Source of the DNA: Anaerobaca lacustris
Lineage (GTDB): Bacteria > Planctomycetota > Phycisphaerae > Sedimentisphaerales > Anaerobacaceae
NCBI RefSeq assembly: GCF_030012215.1
Contig: NZ_JASCXX010000035.1
Coordinates: forward strand, 1 to 44,739
DNA: 44,739 nucleotides
Reading direction: 5' to 3'
In this document: positions 24,826 to 33,676 of the stretch, piece by piece
How the letters are laid out: the number at the start of each line of letters is the position of its first letter
Position numbering within the stretch: the stretch's first letter is position 1
Program-made: the position numbers and the translations under genes
The notes under the pieces: generated by a model
Told to the model about the DNA's origin: nothing
Database searches by the model: none
The model's input: the letters and a program-made list of their open reading frames with translations, nothing else

Positions 24826-25165
24826 GACCTATCCATCCGCATATGGCGCCCGGACAGATTTGTATTGGGCTCGTTCGCGTTTGACAGTAGACTGGTCAGG
24901 GCACGGGTCGCCGGGTGTGTGCTGTCCGAAGTGGGGGGTATCTGTGTGGCTTGATCGCCGTCGATCGCTGGAATGTCTATGCGGTCCAAAGCCGGCAGTT
25001 CGTGAGGTTTGCATTCACAGAACGGCTGTGACAGCCTCTGGTGTCGTCAAGGTCACCGATTCCCAAAGGGACGCTGGTTCGAGCGCTCCCCTCGCAGTGA
25101 CATGGTCTGCCCCGGTTCAGCGTGCCCACAACAGAGACTGGCTCCAAGTGGAGGCCGAGTGACAT
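24826..25165. other. Gene-free stretch before the PAS histidine kinase
   Basis: No supported gene was found. It must hold the histidine kinase promoter, but a TTGACA near 24883 has no matching -10, so none is called. Confidence 0.3.
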
Positions 25166-28100
25166 ATGACAGAGCAGGGACGCGACATCGGGCACGGACA
25201 GGCGGGTCGTACATTGAACGAGGAGGTCCGCTCCTTGCGCACGAGGTTGACCCGATTCGAGCGGGCGAAGGGCGAACATGACGCTACGGCAGAGCTTTAC
25301 CGTGCCGTGGTCGACAACTCCGCCCAGGGTCTGGCCGTCATCGAGAATGGCCATATTGTGTTTGCCAATCGAAACATGGAGACTCTCACCGGCTACAGCG
25401 TCGAAGAACTCAGGGCCATGTCCGTCGAGCAGGTCCGAACTCTGGTCCATCCGGAGGATCAGCAACTCGTTTGGAGTCGTCATCGGGATCGCCTGGCGGG
25501 GGACGACCCACGAAACCACTGCGACTTTCGAGTGATTCACAGGGATGGGACTGTGCGATGGCTCCGGCTGTACGCCAACCGAATTACCTATCGTGGTCGT
25601 GATGCGGTACAGGCGGCCTGCGTGGATATCTCGGATTGGAGACAGGCCGAGGAGCGGCAGGCCCATATCAAGAAGGTGCTGCTGGCCATCCGAAGCATCG
25701 ATCAACTCATTGTCGCCGAGACCGACCGGCAGAAGCTCACCGAGCGGGCCTGCGCGAACCTGACCGAGACCTTGGGCTATTTCAGCGCGTGGATCGCTCT
25801 GTTGGACAAGACGGGCCAATCCATAGCAATGACGGCAGCGTCCGGCTTCGATGGTGACTTCGAGGCGATGCGCGGACGGCTCGAGAGAGGCGAATTCCCT
25901 CGCTGCATGACCGAATCGCTTTGGGAGGACACGACCGTCGTTGTGGGTGGGCCGAAAAATGACTGCCCGGAGTGCCCGGTTGCGCCGGTACATGGCAGCC
26001 GCGCGGGGCTGGCCCGGCGTCTGGCCTCCAGTGGCAAGGTCTATGGCGTGCTGGTCGTGTCGGTCCCCGGTCCCTACGCTCACGATCTCGAAGAGCAGGA
26101 CCTTTTCAGGGAACTGGCCGATGACCTGGGTCTTGCGCTGCATAGGATCGAGGCGGCCGAAGCGCTGCGAGACAGCGAGGCCCGATACCGGCGTTTTGTG
26201 GAGACGGCCCTCGAGGGGATCTGGGCTATGAATCCCGAGCACGAGACGACCTTCGTCAACGAACGCATGGCGTCGATGCTCGGATATGCGCCACAGCAGA
26301 TGCTCGGACGCAAAGTCGAAGACTTCATGTTCGAAGAAGACCTTCCCGCCCACCGCCGGCGGATGCAGAGCCGTCACGAAGGCAAGGGCGGGCAATACGA
26401 GCACCGGTTCCGCCGCGCGGACGGCAGGGAAGTGTGGACCCTGGTCTCGGCCACGGCCATCGTGTCTGAACAGGGGCAATTCGGCGGCTCGTTCGCCATG
26501 TTTACGGACATCACCGAACGCAAGCGGGCCATCCGGGCGCTGGAACGGAGCGAACAGCGGTATCGCGCCCTCTTTGAAGGTTCGCCGATTGGGATCGGTC
26601 TGGCCGAGCTTGACGGCCATGTCCTGGCCGCCAATCAGGCAATGGAGGAATTGCTTGGCTATTCAGTCGAGCAGTGGGAGCATCTGAACCTCGCGAATCT
26701 CTATGAGGACCCGAAAGACAGGATTGCTTTGATCGAACGAGTCCAACGGGATGGGCGCGTCAGAAACTATCCGCTGCGGTTGAGACACAAGGACGGTCGT
26801 CCGGTCGACGTCCTGCTCAGCACGTCGCTGATTCAATCCGAAGGTCGGGCACTCCTACAGACGATGTGTGTTGATATCACCGACCGCGTGCGTGCTCAGG
26901 AGGAGTTGGCCGAGGCCTCCAGACGCCTGCGCGAGGCGGTCCGGGCGGGCAATGTCGGGCTCTGGGACTGGGACCTGGCCACCAATCGCGTGCAGTACTC
27001 GCCCGAATGGAAACGGCAGATCGGCTACGACGAGCATGAGATCACAGACAGCTTCGAGGAGTGGCAAAGCCGCGTCCATCCCGAGGATCTGGCGCCCACG
27101 CTGGCACGGGTCCACCGGGCGATTGCGGACGGCAGTGCCGAGTATTTCACCGAATTTCGCTTTCGCCACAAGGACGGTTCCTATCGGTGGATTCTGGCCC
27201 AGTCCTCGGTCTTCTGTGACGAAGCGGGCCGGCCGAGTCGCGTGCTGGGTTCGCACATCGATATTACGAACCAGAAGCGAATAGAGGCTGCTTTGCAGGA
27301 GAGTGAGGAGCGATTACGGCTGGCCCACAAGGCTACCAACGATGTGGTCTGGGACTGGGATGTTGTTCACGACGCGCAGCGATGGAATCCGGCCGGAGTA
27401 AGCGTATTCGGCTGGAAGGACATCGTCGAGGCGCCCCAGACGGCCGGTTGGTGGGTCGGGCGCGTTCATCCCGAGGACCGACAACGTGTAGACGAGGGCT
27501 TCTTCGCGGTCGTGAACGACCCGGCGAGAAACCACTGGCAGGATGAATACCGATTCCGCAGGGCTGATGGCAGTTATGCCGAGGTCCTGGATCGCGGGCA
27601 CGTTCTGCGCAACGATAACGGAGAGGCGGTGCGGATGATTGGCGCGATGCTCGATATCACCGAGCGCAAGCGAGCGGAAGAGACGCTGAATCGCCAGCGT
27701 GCCGAGCTCCAGGCAATTTACGACCACGCGCCGGTGATGATGTGCGTGCTGGACCCCGATCGCCGGGTGCTCTTTGCGAACCGGGCGTTTACGGAGTTCA
27801 CCGGTGTTTCTGAGAGCCATCTGCGGCAAGGTCGCGCCTGTGGGGTGTTTGGGTGCATCAACGCCAAGGACGATCCGCGCGGCTGCGGGTTCGGACCGGC
27901 CTGCCAGGGATGCGCCCTGCGCCGGGCTTTGGACGTTACGCTCAGGACGGGAGTCGGCCATCGAAACATCGAATACCGTGCTACGATCGAGCACAATACG
28001 AGTCGGCGGGACGTCGTATTGATCGGCGCGACCGCCGCAATCCACACGGGCGAGCACACCAACGCTCTGCTGTGTCTGGAGGACCGCACCGAGCAGGAAC

Positions 28101-28888
28101 AGGCCGAACACCAGGCCCGGCAGCGGGAACTGGAATTGCTGCACGTCGCCCGCCTGAGCACGCTGGGCGAGATGGCCTCCGGGTTGGCGCACGAGCTGAG
28201 CCAGCCGTTGTCGGCCATCGTCAACTACAGCACCGCCTGCGCGCAACTGGGAGCGGCGGATCGGCCGGACCTGCAACGGATCGTGAAGAACATTCACAGG
28301 ATCACCGAACAGGCCGAACGCGCCCGAGACATCATGGTGCGCATCCGGGAACTGGCCCAGCGCCGCCGACCCCGTCTGGCCTCGGTCGATGTGAACCGGG
28401 TCGTCGCCAACGTGCTGGATCTGCTGTCATGGCAGATTCGGCAGAAGGGAATCGATCTGAATTCGGACCTCGACGCCCGATTGCCGGCGGTGCGGGCCGA
28501 CGCCGTCCAGGTCGAACAAGTGCTGGTCAATCTCACCCGAAACGCCATCGAGGCGATGGAGCAGACGCCTCCGCAGCACAGGCATCTGACGATTCGCACC
28601 GGCTCCGGCGAGGGGGGCACCGTTCGCATCGAGGTCTCCGACACCGGCGTCGGGATCCCCGACGGCAGCCCCGAGCGCATCTTCGATGCGTTCTTCACCA
28701 CCAAGGCCGACGGGTTGGGCATCGGCCTGTCGATCAGCCGCACCATTGTCGAGATGCACGAAGGGACCCTCCAGGCCGGTCGAAACGCCGAGGGGGGCAG
28801 CACCTTCGTCGTGGTGCTTCCCAGGGCATCGAAGCAGGACGGTCGCGGGCCGGGCGGCAGCGGTGTGGGCACCGGAAGCGCATGGTGA
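25166..28888 (+). CDS. Multi-PAS/GAF sensor histidine kinase
   Basis: The 1240-residue protein lacks obvious membrane segments. In order I see PAS (about 44-155), GAF (about 169-331), five further PAS domains (about 338-451, 460-573, 588-701, 715-831, 847-975), a HisKA domain (991-1062) with phospho-acceptor His1009 in GLAHELSQPLS, and an HATPase domain (about 1110-1222) with NLTRNAIEAM and DTGVGIPDG. The last PAS contains four Cys between CGVFGC and ACQGCALRRA, a possible redox or metal sensor. It is followed by a FixJ-like regulator, a typical two-component pair. The signal is unknown. Confidence 0.9.
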   Translation: MTEQGRDIGHGQAGRTLNEEVRSLRTRLTRFERAKGEHDATAELYRAVVDNSAQGLAVIENGHIVFANRNMETLTGYSVEELRAMSVEQVRTLVHPEDQQLVWSRHRDRLAGDDPRNHCDFRVIHRDGTVRWLRLYANRITYRGRDAVQAACVDISDWRQAEERQAHIKKVLLAIRSIDQLIVAETDRQKLTERACANLTETLGYFSAWIALLDKTGQSIAMTAASGFDGDFEAMRGRLERGEFPRCMTESLWEDTTVVVGGPKNDCPECPVAPVHGSRAGLARRLASSGKVYGVLVVSVPGPYAHDLEEQDLFRELADDLGLALHRIEAAEALRDSEARYRRFVETALEGIWAMNPEHETTFVNERMASMLGYAPQQMLGRKVEDFMFEEDLPAHRRRMQSRHEGKGGQYEHRFRRADGREVWTLVSATAIVSEQGQFGGSFAMFTDITERKRAIRALERSEQRYRALFEGSPIGIGLAELDGHVLAANQAMEELLGYSVEQWEHLNLANLYEDPKDRIALIERVQRDGRVRNYPLRLRHKDGRPVDVLLSTSLIQSEGRALLQTMCVDITDRVRAQEELAEASRRLREAVRAGNVGLWDWDLATNRVQYSPEWKRQIGYDEHEITDSFEEWQSRVHPEDLAPTLARVHRAIADGSAEYFTEFRFRHKDGSYRWILAQSSVFCDEAGRPSRVLGSHIDITNQKRIEAALQESEERLRLAHKATNDVVWDWDVVHDAQRWNPAGVSVFGWKDIVEAPQTAGWWVGRVHPEDRQRVDEGFFAVVNDPARNHWQDEYRFRRADGSYAEVLDRGHVLRNDNGEAVRMIGAMLDITERKRAEETLNRQRAELQAIYDHAPVMMCVLDPDRRVLFANRAFTEFTGVSESHLRQGRACGVFGCINAKDDPRGCGFGPACQGCALRRALDVTLRTGVGHRNIEYRATIEHNTSRRDVVLIGATAAIHTGEHTNALLCLEDRTEQEQAEHQARQRELELLHVARLSTLGEMASGLAHELSQPLSAIVNYSTACAQLGAADRPDLQRIVKNIHRITEQAERARDIMVRIRELAQRRRPRLASVDVNRVVANVLDLLSWQIRQKGIDLNSDLDARLPAVRADAVQVEQVLVNLTRNAIEAMEQTPPQHRHLTIRTGSGEGGTVRIEVSDTGVGIPDGSPERIFDAFFTTKADGLGIGLSISRTIVEMHEGTLQAGRNAEGGSTFVVVLPRASKQDGRGPGGSGVGTGSAW

Positions 28889-29038
28889 CATCCAACGGCT
28901 TGTGGTATGAAGTGGAATTCGCATAGGGTACAGCAGGATGCTCAAGGGCAAGACACAAGAAGACGGCCCGGTCTGTCCGATAGACTGTAGTGTAGTAGAA
29001 GTGACGTTGGATGAAGCCATACTCTTCGGGAGGCGAAG

Positions 29039-29689
29039 ATGGCGGTTGCTGGTGCAAAGGTTTTCGTGGTCGATGATGATGCGGCTGCTCGTGACGCCAT
29101 GCAGGAGTTGATGGAGAGTGTCGGGCTTGACGTGCGGACCTTTGCCTCGGCGACCGAGTTCCTGGAGGTCTACGATTCCCAATGGCGCGGCTGCGTTCTG
29201 CTGGACGTCCGCATGCCGGGGATGAGCGGCTTGCAGCTTCAGGAGGAAATGCGCCGCCGGGGGTCTCATCTGCCGCTGATCTTCGTCACCGCTCACGGCG
29301 ACATCCCGATGGCCGTCGAGGCGCTGAAGAAAGGCGCAGCGGACTTCGTGGAAAAGCCGTTCGGCGGCCAGACCCTGCTCGACAAGGTCCACGAGGCCCT
29401 GTGTCTGGAAGAACGCAATTTTCTGCGACACACGCAAGTGGAGGAGGTCCGGTCCCGACTGGCCCTTCTGACGCCCAAGGAGAAACAGGTCCTACAGCGT
29501 CTGGTGGAAGGCCAGCGCTCCAAACAAATGGCCCTGGCGCTCGGGCTCAGCCGCAAGACGGTGGATTGGCACCTGTCGGTCATACGCGAGAAGATGGGGG
29601 CCGATTCCACGGGCGATTTGATGCTGCTTCTCCACAAGGCCGGCTGTCTCGACGCCGAGGGCGCGCTGCCGCCCACCACACGCTTCTGA
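29039..29689 (+). CDS. FixJ/NarL-like response regulator
   Basis: The 216-residue protein has a receiver domain with acidic DDDA at the N-terminus, phospho-acceptor Asp56 in VLLDVRMPGMSG and a KPFGG lysine, followed by a LuxR-type helix-turn-helix (LTPKEKQVLQRLVEGQRSKQ, with SRKTVDWHLSVIREKMG). GGAGGCGAAG precedes the start. It lies 150 bp after the histidine kinase, its probable partner. The target genes are unknown. Confidence 0.92.
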   Translation: MAVAGAKVFVVDDDAAARDAMQELMESVGLDVRTFASATEFLEVYDSQWRGCVLLDVRMPGMSGLQLQEEMRRRGSHLPLIFVTAHGDIPMAVEALKKGAADFVEKPFGGQTLLDKVHEALCLEERNFLRHTQVEEVRSRLALLTPKEKQVLQRLVEGQRSKQMALALGLSRKTVDWHLSVIREKMGADSTGDLMLLLHKAGCLDAEGALPPTTRF

Positions 29690-30037
29690 CAGCGACTTGC
29701 TTCCCTGTGCCCCGACGGGCGCGCGACCCTGATCTGTCTCGCGGCCAGGCCGGTGTCCCCGCGCTTTGAAGGGCGCCATCCGAATTCCTTTCCCCTTCGC
29801 GCTGGTCAAATATCGGGGCGGACCAGGAAATCCCCGGCGCGACATGGCCATGTCTTGGACTCGCTCGGTCACTCTCCCGACGCATCCGGCAAAGCTTTGA
29901 TTATTCTCGGCTCGCAAGAGTCCGACGGTGTTCTCTGGACGGTGCGGACGGAATGATTCCGAGTCGTCGGCGCCCGGCCGAACGTGTGTGTGCCGGCTCG
30001 TGCGAAGACCGTTGCGTTCCCGTCCCGGAACGATGCG
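29690..30037. other. Gene-free stretch after the response regulator
   Basis: No convincing coding region or RNA gene was seen. A GTG at 29984 could extend the following gene by 18 residues, but no ribosome-binding site supports it. Confidence 0.3.
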
Positions 30038-30907
30038 ATGCGAAGAGTTCGAAAAACCAAGCGAAGACCGAAGGCCGGCTCGGCGTGGACGGCCCATGAC
30101 GTGGCGATTCTCACCGAGCTGTATCCGAGGTGCAACAACCGCGATCTGGCGATGCGGCTGGGCCGGTCCGAGTGGGCTGTTGTGGGCAAGGCGCGCGGCC
30201 TCGGACTGACGAAGGATTGTCGGCGGAACTGTCGCCGACGGGCAGGCAGAGGCCGGACGTGGTCGAGCCAGGAGGTGAGTCTGCTTCGGACGCTGTACCC
30301 CACCACGCCGAACGAGGACATCGCCGAACGAATCGACCGGACCCGCAATGCGGTGCACATGAAGGCGCGGCAACTGGGGCTTCGCAAGATGGAATTCTGG
30401 AGCGAGCAGGAGGATCAATATCTGCGAGACGCTTACCACGCGTGCCGCTGTGATGAGCTGGCCCGGCGGCTGGGACGGACCCTTCCGGCTGTCAAAGCCA
30501 GAGCGATCACCCTGAAGCTCGATTCCAAAGTCCCCAACTGGACCGAAGAGGAGATTCGATTCCTGCGAGAGTCGTATGGGACGACGGATGTGGGGATGAT
30601 CGCCGGCGAACTGGGCCGCACGCGCGCCGCCGTGGCCAAGAAGGCGCGCGAGATGGGGCTGGTGTGCTTTCGCCATTGGTCAGGTCGGGACGTGCGGAAA
30701 CTCCGAGAGTTGTATCCTCGCTGCACCATCGGCGAACTGGCCGAGGAGTTCGGCCGCTCTTGTGACTCCATTCGAGGCAAAGCGGCCCAGTTGAAACTGT
30801 CCAAACGAAGTTCGTCTTCGCAACCCACAGAGACTGTTCCCCCAAGGGACGCAGCACGCTCCGCAGGGGCGTGCTACGACCGGCCCTTGGCGTCGTGCTG
30901 TATCTAA
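30038..30907 (+). CDS. Protein of five tandem Myb/GcrA-like helix-turn-helix repeats
   Basis: The 289-residue protein is almost entirely five repeats of about 45 residues. Each starts with a conserved Trp (Trp17, 75, 121, 168, 214), followed by an acidic helix, a central LYP or related motif, an LGRT-like turn and a KA..LGL helix end. Spacing between Trp residues is 58, 46, 47 and 46. The pattern resembles Myb/SANT or GcrA DNA-binding helices, and the basic N-terminus (RRVRKTKRRPK) fits nucleic acid binding. Fold and binding are inference. The gene lies between a FixJ regulator and CheW and has no clear ribosome-binding site. Confidence 0.8.
   Translation: MRRVRKTKRRPKAGSAWTAHDVAILTELYPRCNNRDLAMRLGRSEWAVVGKARGLGLTKDCRRNCRRRAGRGRTWSSQEVSLLRTLYPTTPNEDIAERIDRTRNAVHMKARQLGLRKMEFWSEQEDQYLRDAYHACRCDELARRLGRTLPAVKARAITLKLDSKVPNWTEEEIRFLRESYGTTDVGMIAGELGRTRAAVAKKAREMGLVCFRHWSGRDVRKLRELYPRCTIGELAEEFGRSCDSIRGKAAQLKLSKRSSSSQPTETVPPRDAARSAGACYDRPLASCCI
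30080..30805 (+). repeat. Five 45-residue protein repeats within the tandem HTH gene
   Basis: Units lie at 30080-30214, 30254-30388, 30392-30526, 30533-30667 and 30671-30805. Shared positions are Trp3, an aliphatic-Leu pair near 10-11, Tyr15, Ala/Ile near 24, Gly-Arg near 28-29 and the closing Lys-Ala...Leu. DNA identity between units is low, so the duplications are old and held by protein-level selection. Confidence 0.8.
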
Positions 30908-30943
30908 CGGGTCACATTTGGACCATTGTTAAGGAGTTCTATG

Positions 30944-31441
30944 ATGGCGGAAGCTGTGGTCAAACAACAAAACCGAGAAGTGGTAAGCAAGGAGGGCAAA
31001 TACCTGACCTTCTCTCTGGGGGCCGAGGAATACGGCCTGGAGATTCTCAAGGTCCGCGAGATCATCGGGTACATCGATGTCACCGCCGTGCCCCAGACGC
31101 CGCACCACGTCAAAGGCGTCATCAACCTGCGCGGCCAGGTCATCCCGGTCATCGATCTCCGCGCCAAGTTCGGTATGGAGACCGCCGAGGTCACCGAGCA
31201 AAGCTGTATCATTGTCGTCGAAATCGTCCAGGAGGAGCGAAAGTGCAGCATGGGGATTGTCGTGGATCGCGTCCAGGAGGTCCTCGACATCGCCGGCGGC
31301 AGCATCGAGGATGCCCCTCGGTTCGGAGCGTCGGTGAACACCGACTTCATCCTCGGCATGGGCAAGGTCGGCGACGCCGTCAAGATCCTGCTCGATATCG
31401 ACAAGGTCCTCGCCGGCGACCATTTCGACGGCCTGGCATAG
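30944..31441 (+). CDS. cheW: Chemotaxis adaptor CheW
   Basis: The 165-residue protein has the CheW fold: [40 protein letters not shown], and [15 protein letters not shown]. It couples chemoreceptors to the CheA kinase. AAGGAG ends seven bases before the ATG at 30944, favouring it over 30941. It is followed by a chemoreceptor gene 118 bp downstream; no cheA, cheY, cheR or cheB is in the window. Confidence 0.95.
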
Positions 31442-31559
31442 ACATAAATCGAGCCCGGCAGAAGAGTTCGGGCCAACGTCCGCCCGAAGGACGAACAGGA
31501 CAATCGTGGAAATGCACATCACACAGAAATCGTGTTGGCAGAATGAAAGGACAGCAGAG

Positions 31560-33584
31560 ATGAATTCAAAATGGACCATTGGAAAGAAACTGATTGTGTC
31601 GTTCCTAAGCGTGGCGGCGGTGACAGCGGTTCTCGGCGTCGTCGGCTACTACGGCGTCAATCAGGGCGGCAAGGCCATCAATGAACTTGGTGGCGTGCGG
31701 TTGCCCAGCGTCGAGAGCACGCTGGCGATCCGGGCTGAGGCGGAGAACATTCGGGGGACGCTTCGTACACTGGCGATCTCCGGACTGCCGACGGAGATGC
31801 GTCAGCGCCAGTACAACAACCTTGCCCGGGCTCGAGAGGCCTACGAGCAGGCGTGGGCCGTCTACGAACCTCTGCCGCAAACGCCCGAAGAGGCGGAGGT
31901 ATGGAAGAAGTTTGTTCCCGCCTGGAACGCCTGGCGCGCGGAGAACAGCAAGGCGCTGGAACTGGCCAGGCAGTTCGACGCGCTGGGTATCCAGAAACCC
32001 TACACGCTCAAGGAGAACATGGAGACCTATCGAGGCGACCACTACCGGTTGCAGATGCAGGTGCTCGGCATGATCCAGAGCAAGGAGGTCTTCGAAGGGG
32101 GCGAAAGCCACACCGACTGCAGGTTCGGCCAGTGGATGGCCTCGTTCCAGACGGACAACCCCGTCATCCGCCAGGCGATGCAGGCCTGCGCTGAGCCGCA
32201 CCGGCAATTCCACCTGGCGCTTCATCAGGCCAAGCAGCTCGTGCAGGAAGGCAAGATGGAGGAGGCCCAGAGGCTGTATGAGACCGAGATGGCCCCGGCG
32301 GCCGAGAAGACCTTTGCAGCATTGTACGACATGCGCGGCGTCGCCGATCAGGCCCTGGCGGTTCTTCTGGCGGCCGAGCAACAGGTGCTGGGCCCCGTGA
32401 CGGACACGCAGCGAGCGGCGGTGGACCTGCTCAACCAGATCGTGACGATCAACTCGGAGATCGGCGCCGAGGAGGCGGCCCATTCACAAAGCCAGGCCGC
32501 GTTCCTGAAGGTCCTGGCGGTGGTCGCCCTGGCCATCGGTGTGGTTCTGGCCGTGGGTCTGGGGGTCATCATCAGCCGGTCCATCAACAAGGTCCTGACG
32601 AGAATCGTGGAGGCGTTGTCCGAAGGTTCCGAGCAGGTGGCGGCGGCGTCGGGGCAAGTCTCCGCTGCATCGCAGTCGCTGGCCGAAGGGGCGACCGAGC
32701 AGGCCGCCGGTCTGGAAGAGACGTCTTCGAGCCTGGAAGAGATGTCGTCGATGACCAAGCAGAACGCCGACAACGCCCAGCAGGCCAATGCACTGGCCGG
32801 CGAGGCCCGCAAGGCCGCCGACACCGGCGCCGAATCGATGGGCCGAATGAGCCGGGCCATCAACGATATCCAGAAGAGTTCCGACGAAACCGCCAAGATC
32901 ATCAAGGTCATCGACGAGATCGCCTTCCAGACGAACTTGCTGGCCTTGAACGCCGCGGTCGAGGCCGCCCGGGCCGGCGAGGCGGGTAAGGGCTTTGCCG
33001 TCGTCGCCGAAGAGGTGCGCAATCTGGCGATGCGGTCGGCTGAAGCCGCCAAGAACACCGCCAGCATGATCGAAGAGTCGGTCAAGAACGCCAAGAACGG
33101 CGTGGACATCGCGTCCGAGGTGGGCAAGGTCCTGGACGAGATCGTCCAGAGCATCGGCAAGACCACGAACCTGGTCGGCGAGATTGCGGCTGCTTCGCAG
33201 GAGCAGGCCCAGGGCATCGATCAGGTCAACACCGCCGTCTCCCAGATGGACAAGGTGACGCAGCAGAACGCCGCCAACGCCGAGGAGAGCGCCAGTGCTT
33301 CGGAGGAACTCAGCAGCCAGGCCGAATCCATGAACGAGATCGTGGGGGAACTAACCGCCTTGGTCGGCGGCAATCGCTCAGCAGGCCGCAGGGCGCAGAC
33401 GAAAAGGTCTCCGGTCCGTCGCATGAAAGCGACGTCGCACCATGACATGGTGCCGGCCAAAGGTCGAAGCTATGGAAAGTCCGACGAGGCGTTCCACCAT
33501 ATCGCATCGAAGCCTAAGACCTCGACCGAGTCGAAGCGCACCATCCCGCTCGACGACGAGGATCTGGACCACTTCAACAACTGA
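31560..33584 (+). CDS. Methyl-accepting chemotaxis protein with CZB-like zinc motif in the sensor part
   Basis: The 674-residue receptor has a membrane segment at about 10-30, an extracytoplasmic sensor (about 31-313), a second segment (about 314-338) and a cytoplasmic signalling domain with the [20 protein letters not shown] hairpin. In the sensor, His161, Cys187 (TDCRFGQW), His214 and His218 match the 3His/1Cys zinc site of CZB domains; the Cys-His-His spacing (27, 4) equals that remembered for E. coli DgcZ. CZB domains are usually cytoplasmic, so this location is unusual. AAAGGA precedes ATG 31560. It may sense zinc or oxidants. Confidence 0.9.
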
Positions 33585-33676
33585 GTCGTTTGCAGATTCG
33601 TCTGTGCTTCCAGGTGGGCCCTGCCGGCCCACCTGGGAGTGCGGCGGAGCTTGCGAATTCCGCTGAAGGGAGTCTT

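Follow-up and report, generated by a model that had tools for sequence, protein, structure and literature searches.

Five tandem Myb/GcrA-like helix-turn-helix units in a chromosomal array beside sensory genes in Anaerobaca lacustris

A forward-strand gene at positions 30038–30907 of the window (the whole 44,739-nucleotide stretch of Anaerobaca lacustris DNA that was analysed) encodes a protein of 289 amino acids with five tandem units of the Myb/GcrA helix-turn-helix (HTH) type. When the five units are pooled, unit-specific residues at putative base-contact positions are kept between orthologues, a pattern that does not hold for unit 2 alone. On balance, we lean towards the protein being a sequence-specific regulator whose units would lie along one long site and which is co-inherited with a sensor kinase, a response regulator, CheW and a chemoreceptor. 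The interpretation offered by an earlier sequence-only reading of this DNA is partly supported.

The array gene and its predicted fold

The start of the gene was taken as the ATG at 30038; a GTG at 29984 is put out of frame in orthologue L030 by a one-nucleotide insertion just upstream of the array start. Each unit is 44 residues long, and each has a third helix carrying a distinct set of residues at six variable contact positions. Unit 1 spans 30083–30214 (residues 16–59; third helix 45–55; contact set E W V G R G), unit 2 spans 30257–30388 (residues 74–117; helix 103–112; R N H M R Q), unit 3 spans 30395–30526 (residues 120–163; helix 149–158; L P K A I T), unit 4 spans 30536–30667 (residues 167–210; helix 196–205; R A A K R E) and unit 5 spans 30674–30805 (residues 213–256; helix 242–251; C D R G A Q), all on the forward strand. 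The five-unit array that had been proposed at 30080–30805 was therefore recovered almost exactly. The regular tryptophans noted with it were also confirmed, as those at the unit starts (residues 17, 75, 121, 168 and 214) are spaced by 58, 46, 47 and 46 residues; the units do not fill the whole protein, covering 220 of its 289 residues. The unit-start tryptophan is the sole conserved one per unit, present in 86 of 87 units from the window and its relatives, and unit 1 of the window array has a second. Outside the units are a basic N-terminus of 15 residues, a basic linker of 14 residues between units 1 and 2 (30215–30256) and a tail of about 32 residues; the remaining linkers comprise 2, 3 and 2 residues. 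We also observed an inverted-repeat-like sequence at 30850–30900, within codons of the C-terminal tail.

Chance repeats were ruled out by shuffling and random-register tests and by a unit profile with a shuffled-frame control. Units of the window array are on average 38% identical to one another, and their observed similarity score was reached by none of 2000 within-unit shuffles and none of 2000 random registers. A unit profile built solely from relatives outside the window and outside its two orthologues found exactly five units in the array frame (44–58 bits each, E 1.5e-78). The same profile gave one weak match among the other 412 frames of the window (E 0.008, best stretch 9.2 bits) and none among 413 shuffled frames.

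Predicted structure and remote homology both place the units in the Myb/GcrA group, in line with the Myb-like, DNA-binding assignment first made by eye. AlphaFold2, run on the window protein together with its two orthologues, predicted three helices in all five units, the unit-by-unit check that the sequence-only reading had suggested. Confidence was at least 70 pLDDT in 195 of 289 residues and below 50 in the N-terminus, first linker and tail. With a pTM of 0.26 for the whole protein and 0.34 for units 2–5 alone, the relative placement of the units is not predicted by the model. The best VIA-align matches were to GcrA, namely 5yiu on unit 4 (Z 8.4, 1.4 Å over 47 residues) and DNA-bound 5yiv on unit 2 (Z 8.3, 1.0 Å over 43 residues). 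These were followed by spliceosome chains that we take to be tandem-Myb-like, and then by c-Myb 1h88 (Z 6.9, 7.4 Å over 136 residues) and Reb1 5eyb (Z 6.8, 8.1 Å over 134 residues), both aligned over units 2–4. As Z scores below 8 can reflect merely a common arrangement, we treat the multi-unit matches as supporting evidence and not as proof.

Foldseek returned no match at E <= 0.001 in the PDB and 30 among viral predicted structures, including a Vibrio phage D5 protein, and only two matches (E 0.067 and 0.14) came from searching solved structures with the single protein. The structural case therefore rests on VIA-align and the profile search. A profile of ten arrays best matched 2lvs, a CRISPR repeat binding protein (E 8.1e-6), aligned in register with c-Myb R1R2R3 (1h88) across three repeats (E 5e-4) and matched the GcrA DNA-binding domain (E 1.4e-3). 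The window protein itself matched Pfam GcrA (PF07750) in three stretches (E 5e-10, 40.4 bits against a cut-off of 26.9), the best of which covers profile positions 2–49 of 155 and ends at 49. A TyrR-type HTH (NCBIfam) scored 23.7 bits, under its cut-off of 30. A defence-system protein was considered and rejected, as PADLOC yielded one model for the window protein at E 0.051.

The sequence-only reading had named TPR-like repeats, or the lack of a conserved basic surface, as outcomes that would speak against DNA binding. TPR-like and other solenoid repeats were ruled out by the HTH matches and the three-helix units. Every recognition helix is basic, with a helix-3 segment charge of +3 to +5 in all five units against 0 to −4 for helices 1–2.

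Constraint on the recognition helices

Two congeners carry orthologues that are 89% and 81% identical to the window array, and all three proteins have five units. Across the three orthologue pairs the array gene shows dN/dS of 0.28–0.37, which indicates protein-level selection on the gene. The recognition-helix segment was less variable than helices 1–2, with 10 of 80 codons variable in amino acid compared with 45 of 125 (Fisher p 1.8e-4; as in all of these selection tests, there are three orthologues only, cells are non-independent and position sets were picked after the data were seen). Synonymous-only changes ran the opposite way, at 26 of 80 and 20 of 125 codons. Among the three orthologues, dN/dS was 0.07–0.19 in the helix-3 segment versus 0.40–0.52 in helices 1–2. 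Constraint specific to the recognition helix is thus a further point in favour of the DNA-binding assignment.

Six helix-3 positions (30, 31, 34, 35, 38 and 39) are hypervariable among the 87 units, at 3.33–3.75 bits within a well-conserved frame. In the c-Myb register, positions 34, 35, 38 and 39 align with K182, N183, N186 and S187, which we take to be base contacts. Between orthologues these six contact positions were variable in 4 of 30 cells, compared with 22 of 40 for equally variable positions in helices 1–2 (p=4e-4). The residues that set one unit apart from another are therefore stable within that unit between orthologues, which is how specificity residues should behave. Counted per unit, changes at contact (of six) and control (of eight) positions numbered 0 and 5 in unit 1, 1 and 1 in unit 2, 1 and 6 in both units 3 and 4, and 1 and 4 in unit 5. 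Over the whole helix, units 1, 3, 4 and 5 had 0, 2, 1 and 2 variable positions out of 16, versus 7, 10, 13 and 9 out of 25 in helices 1–2. Unit 2 showed no such contrast (5 of 16 in helix 3 versus 6 of 25 in helices 1–2; contact 1 of 6 versus control 1 of 8), and for this reason we graded our best explanation lower and regraded its rivals.

We sought the same pattern in six other array pairs, where it was largely not reproduced. Four of these pairs come from a separate four-unit family, matched at E <= 1e-15 in 21 of 294 genomes. Nineteen of its 20 fetched arrays have four called units and one has three, and ptsI (PTS enzyme I) lies within the 1.5-kb flank in 19 of the 20. This ptsI-linked family (L039–L058, L089–L095) is spread over four planctomycete families and shows strong conservation of the fourth recognition helix and of a C-terminal MGRENV-like motif. 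Its four pairs gave p values of 0.24–1, with L040/L050 and L048/L041 slightly contrary to the window pattern; contact change was absent from unit 4 in all four pairs and from unit 1 in one. Recognition-helix conservation exceeds that of the scaffold in unit 4 (0.77 versus 0.48) but not in units 1–3. The two remaining pairs pointed in different directions, with L012/L013 in the expected one (p 0.09) and L011/L018 in the opposite one (p 0.0496).

Such unevenness among units could be explained if the array were mixed, with one or two units reading DNA at a short site and the rest acting as spacers or as protein-binding, SANT-like modules. The ptsI-linked arrays that keep only the recognition helix of unit 4 would fit this explanation, as would window unit 2 with its lack of contrast between helix 3 and helices 1–2. 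Unit 5 also resembles the SANT region of CoREST (five rows, Z 5.8–5.9, 1.7–1.9 Å), and two more CoREST rows fall on unit 2. However, helix 3 is basic in all five units, and in units 1, 3, 4 and 5 it is less variable between orthologues than helices 1–2. We consider a mixed array unlikely, and the strongest of the alternatives to a regulator with units along one long site.

Unit number and contact change among relatives

Related arrays are patchily distributed and vary widely in unit number. Matches occur at E <= 1e-6 in 15 of 61 genomes (that of the window and 60 relatives) and at E <= 1e-5 in 24 of 294 genomes across the phylum, the window's own included. Loci of the 61-genome search contain 1, 2, 4 or 6 units, in addition to the window array and its orthologues with five; we dropped L001, L004 and L005, which are the same as the window, L029 and L030, as well as duplicates of other loci (L020, L021, L024, L025, L061–L066). 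Matches at E <= 0.01 were also found in 91 of 72,556 plasmid records and 32 of 50,697 phage records, all below 60% identity. A Sphingobium plasmid protein has six called units and Listeria phage B025 gp44 has three. The suggested search for proteins with variable numbers of the repeat thus returned called-unit counts from 1 to 6. The view that bacterial units of this type are usually single or few was not supported, as arrays of 3, 4, 5 and 6 called units are present in the window's order and phylum, on plasmids and in phages. With arrays of 3–6 units in other Planctomycetota, plasmids and phages, five units are not exceptional.

Several features of individual relatives were observed alongside these counts. 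Small relatives with a single unit, which look like one Myb unit attached to a histone-like or nucleoid protein, include L002 in the window's own genome, L017, L026, L027 and L028; at least L026 and L017 have a lysine-rich (KKKK-like) N-terminus. In L033, on a plasmid of Scandinavium, genes for type VI secretion precede an array gene, and a viral contig encodes a one-unit protein that is GcrA-like by eye (L070, 2941–3477). One or two C-terminal Cys-pair (zinc-ribbon-like) modules occur in some arrays (L104, L111, L119, L126). A possible separate-gene form of this module, L096:6374–6733, lies just downstream of an array and gives blastp matches to loci L100, L134 and L135; there was no Pfam match.

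For a related sister family, 19 of the 161 genomes examined in the order gave matches at E <= 1e-25, a number in which the window's own array is counted; single genomes carry as many as three copies. Three of its 26 arrays have three units, 19 have four and four have five. Comparisons used a core of 17 arrays, leaving out L109, L112, L115, L116, L118, L119 and L124–L126 for unit number or distance; L120 was further left out of the unit 2 identities and, owing to a register shift, wholly out of the random-pairing analyses. L117 is the window itself.

The contact pattern of the sister family is the reverse of that at the window locus. Sixteen sister arrays carry 15 distinct unit 2 contact sets, with an identity of 0.15 at these positions compared with 0.63 for the scaffold. 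Contact versus control identity over 16–17 arrays was 0.15 versus 0.42 in unit 2, 0.38 versus 0.49 in unit 4, 0.47 versus 0.51 in unit 1 and 0.25 versus 0.26 in unit 3, so that the excess of contact change over controls in units 1, 3 and 4 was smaller than in unit 2 or absent. With all units pooled, contact changes exceeded controls in 200 of 200 random disjoint pairings (medians 0.49 versus 0.36, scaffold 0.22), in draws that overlap, from 16 arrays paired at 65% identity or above. The first six disjoint pairs gave a unit 2 contact omega of 3.85 (bootstrap 1.59–17.49), while 60 re-drawn pairings gave a median of 1.29 (range 0.68–5.01, above 1 in 44 of 60) and a scaffold median of 0.32. Since omega is unstable across re-drawn pairings, we limit our claim to fast change relative to the scaffold; positive selection on the contact positions is not robust. 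In the similar arrays L105 and L107, four of six contact and one of 26 scaffold positions differ in unit 2, and units 3 and 4 differ too.

Whole units are also gained and lost in this related family. One sister locus with shared neighbours, including SurE, has five units in one species and four in two, a difference of exactly 48 residues. The fifth unit there came from duplication of unit 1, with copies that are 77% identical in amino acids and 80% in nucleotides. Exactly 48 residues, equal to one unit plus linker, are likewise absent from three other sister arrays, with the gap placed inside a recognition helix. Units therefore come and go whole.

Genomic context, possible roles and known systems

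The array lies between two signalling modules, as the sequence-only reading had stated. Upstream on the same strand are a PAS/GAF sensor histidine kinase (25166–28888) and a FixJ-type response regulator (29039–29689), both co-inherited neighbours. Downstream, also on the forward strand, are CheW (30944–31441), beginning 36 bases past the array gene, and a methyl-accepting chemotaxis protein (MCP) with a CZB domain (31506–33584). Both orthologues keep the five-gene order of kinase, regulator, array, CheW and chemoreceptor (24838–33651), save for a differing kinase middle. In G005, 18–19 kb on each side of this block is without a blastn match to the window, a flank comparison that rests on this genome, as the G001 contig ends about 1 kb beyond the block. 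Pieces of the window flanks that occur in G001 and G005 are short and lie elsewhere. These patterns suggest that the five-gene sensory block moves as one piece. At the thresholds used, the response regulator and array occur together in three of six congeners and neither was found in the other three, two of which are only 75% and 80% complete; CheW relatives are present in all six. We also observed that the matched response regulator in G001 (L078) contains an in-frame TAG and may be broken.

The 222 bases before the array (29816–30037, forward strand) are 83% identical in all three orthologues, whereas identity at the third codon positions within the array gene is 69%. This region could be a promoter or leader and is a candidate autoregulatory site. 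A consensus scan found no Sigma70-like promoters or terminators, and no target site for the array was found; both orthologues have a palindrome-like CCAGGAAATTCCTGG, which is changed in the window. A structured RNA was rejected, since Rfam gave no match up to E 1 over 28800–31100, two upstream stretches folded no better than shuffles (z 0.84 and 1.23) and the tail/intergenic stretch had a z of −0.89. A local regulatory role for the array is plausible, with the array linked to the chemotaxis genes by neighbourhood only.

Under the regulator reading that we favour, each of the five GcrA/Myb-type units would be a three-helix HTH whose third helix enters the DNA major groove, as suggested by GcrA and c-Myb. 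The six variable third-helix positions would set the base preference of each unit, to judge from their variation and constraint. Linkers among units 2–5 are just 2–3 residues long, so these units would sit side by side on one composite site, perhaps of the order of 15–25 bp. Reading of one long DNA site by the array, as first proposed, is likely. From the conserved upstream region, the array probably controls its own block (array-cheW-MCP, perhaps also the kinase and regulator genes), and would thereby serve the sensory locus as an output or a fine-tuning element; this is the weakest step of the scheme.

A different role is suggested by the phage family PHROG 323 ("transcriptional regulator, D5-like"), which matched the window protein at E 2.4e-60 in three stretches, the best covering profile positions 85–190 of 319. 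Listeria phage B025 gp44 covers positions 4–219 of this profile and T5 D5 covers 3–270. T5 D5, apparently the name-giver of the family, is annotated as a DNA-binding protein required for replication and late transcription, and a 2026 preprint reports that D5, as modelled with AlphaFold3, binds retron msdDNA via an HTH (PMC13405049). Like D5, the array could be an architectural binder that coats DNA cooperatively with little sequence preference and blocks or bends it. Its net charge of +27, with a basic N-terminus and linker, would suit such a protein. However, non-specific binding needs no unit-specific contacts fixed between orthologues, and T5 D5 itself matches the unit profile weakly, in two stretches near 12 bits. 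We find this explanation improbable, somewhat more so than a mixed array. That the array is a phage or plasmid gene that was domesticated and now has no role in the host is very improbable, for although its strongest database family match is to a phage family, relatives occur on plasmids and phages and its presence is patchy, its dN/dS is low, especially in the recognition helices, and its place in the five-gene block is conserved.

More broadly, we raise the tentative and rather doubtful idea that planctomycete Myb/GcrA arrays form a natural, re-targetable modular system for reading DNA. In such a system, which would resemble zinc-finger arrays, a fixed scaffold would carry a six-position recognition set per unit and evolve through changes in the helix and the gain or loss of whole units, with the window array as a member held at one fixed target. 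Modular DNA readers with separable units include eukaryotic zinc fingers and tandem Myb proteins, as well as TALEs. If each unit reads its own subsite, such proteins would reveal the way in which new DNA targets evolve in bacteria, would offer a small scaffold for designed DNA binders and would connect a sensory block with a regulator of its own. Pairs of similar arrays distinguished mainly by the recognition helix of one unit, such as L105 and L107, bear directly on per-unit reading. Phage forms of such arrays are already known and collected in PHROG 323; this analysis adds the pattern of contact residues that are fixed in one setting and changing in another, together with the gain and loss of whole units. 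Our literature search found no bacterial or phage Myb-like arrays or chromosomal bacterial HTH arrays by title or start of abstract, with "tandem HTH" and "D5-like" occurring in some body texts and subscription papers outside its scope.

Compared with known systems, the array is not a GcrA. The three-helix unit is common to both (32–37% identity, 1.0–1.4 Å to the Caulobacter protein), but GcrA has a single HTH followed by a C-terminal sigma70-interacting part, whereas the array has five units, a best-matching stretch that ends at profile position 49 of 155 and a tail (residues 258–289) with pLDDT below 50. It is also not a canonical Myb. c-Myb R1R2R3 and fungal Reb1 likewise hold tandem units in one DNA-bound chain, in register with the array over three units in the case of c-Myb, but the multi-unit rmsd is large for both. 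The canonical animal Myb repeat is longer and has three regularly spaced tryptophans, compared with one conserved tryptophan per array unit.

Members of PHROG 323 share with the array several tandem units in one small protein. However, the window array is chromosomal, has five regular units where those of T5 D5 are degenerate, and is kept in a signalling block; by our own criterion it also differs in matching the family in pieces and not in one colinear match as gp44 and T5 D5 do. Archaeal Cbp1 has several HTH domains in tandem, and 2lvs, the best profile match of the arrays, is presumably related to Cbp1 itself. Cbp1 differs in being archaeal and in acting at CRISPR arrays. Its three HTH domains, thought to have originated by duplication, lie in order along one CRISPR repeat, and deletion variants assign individual units to portions of that repeat (PMC10883916). 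Cbp1 is the best prokaryotic parallel to the array among those compared here.
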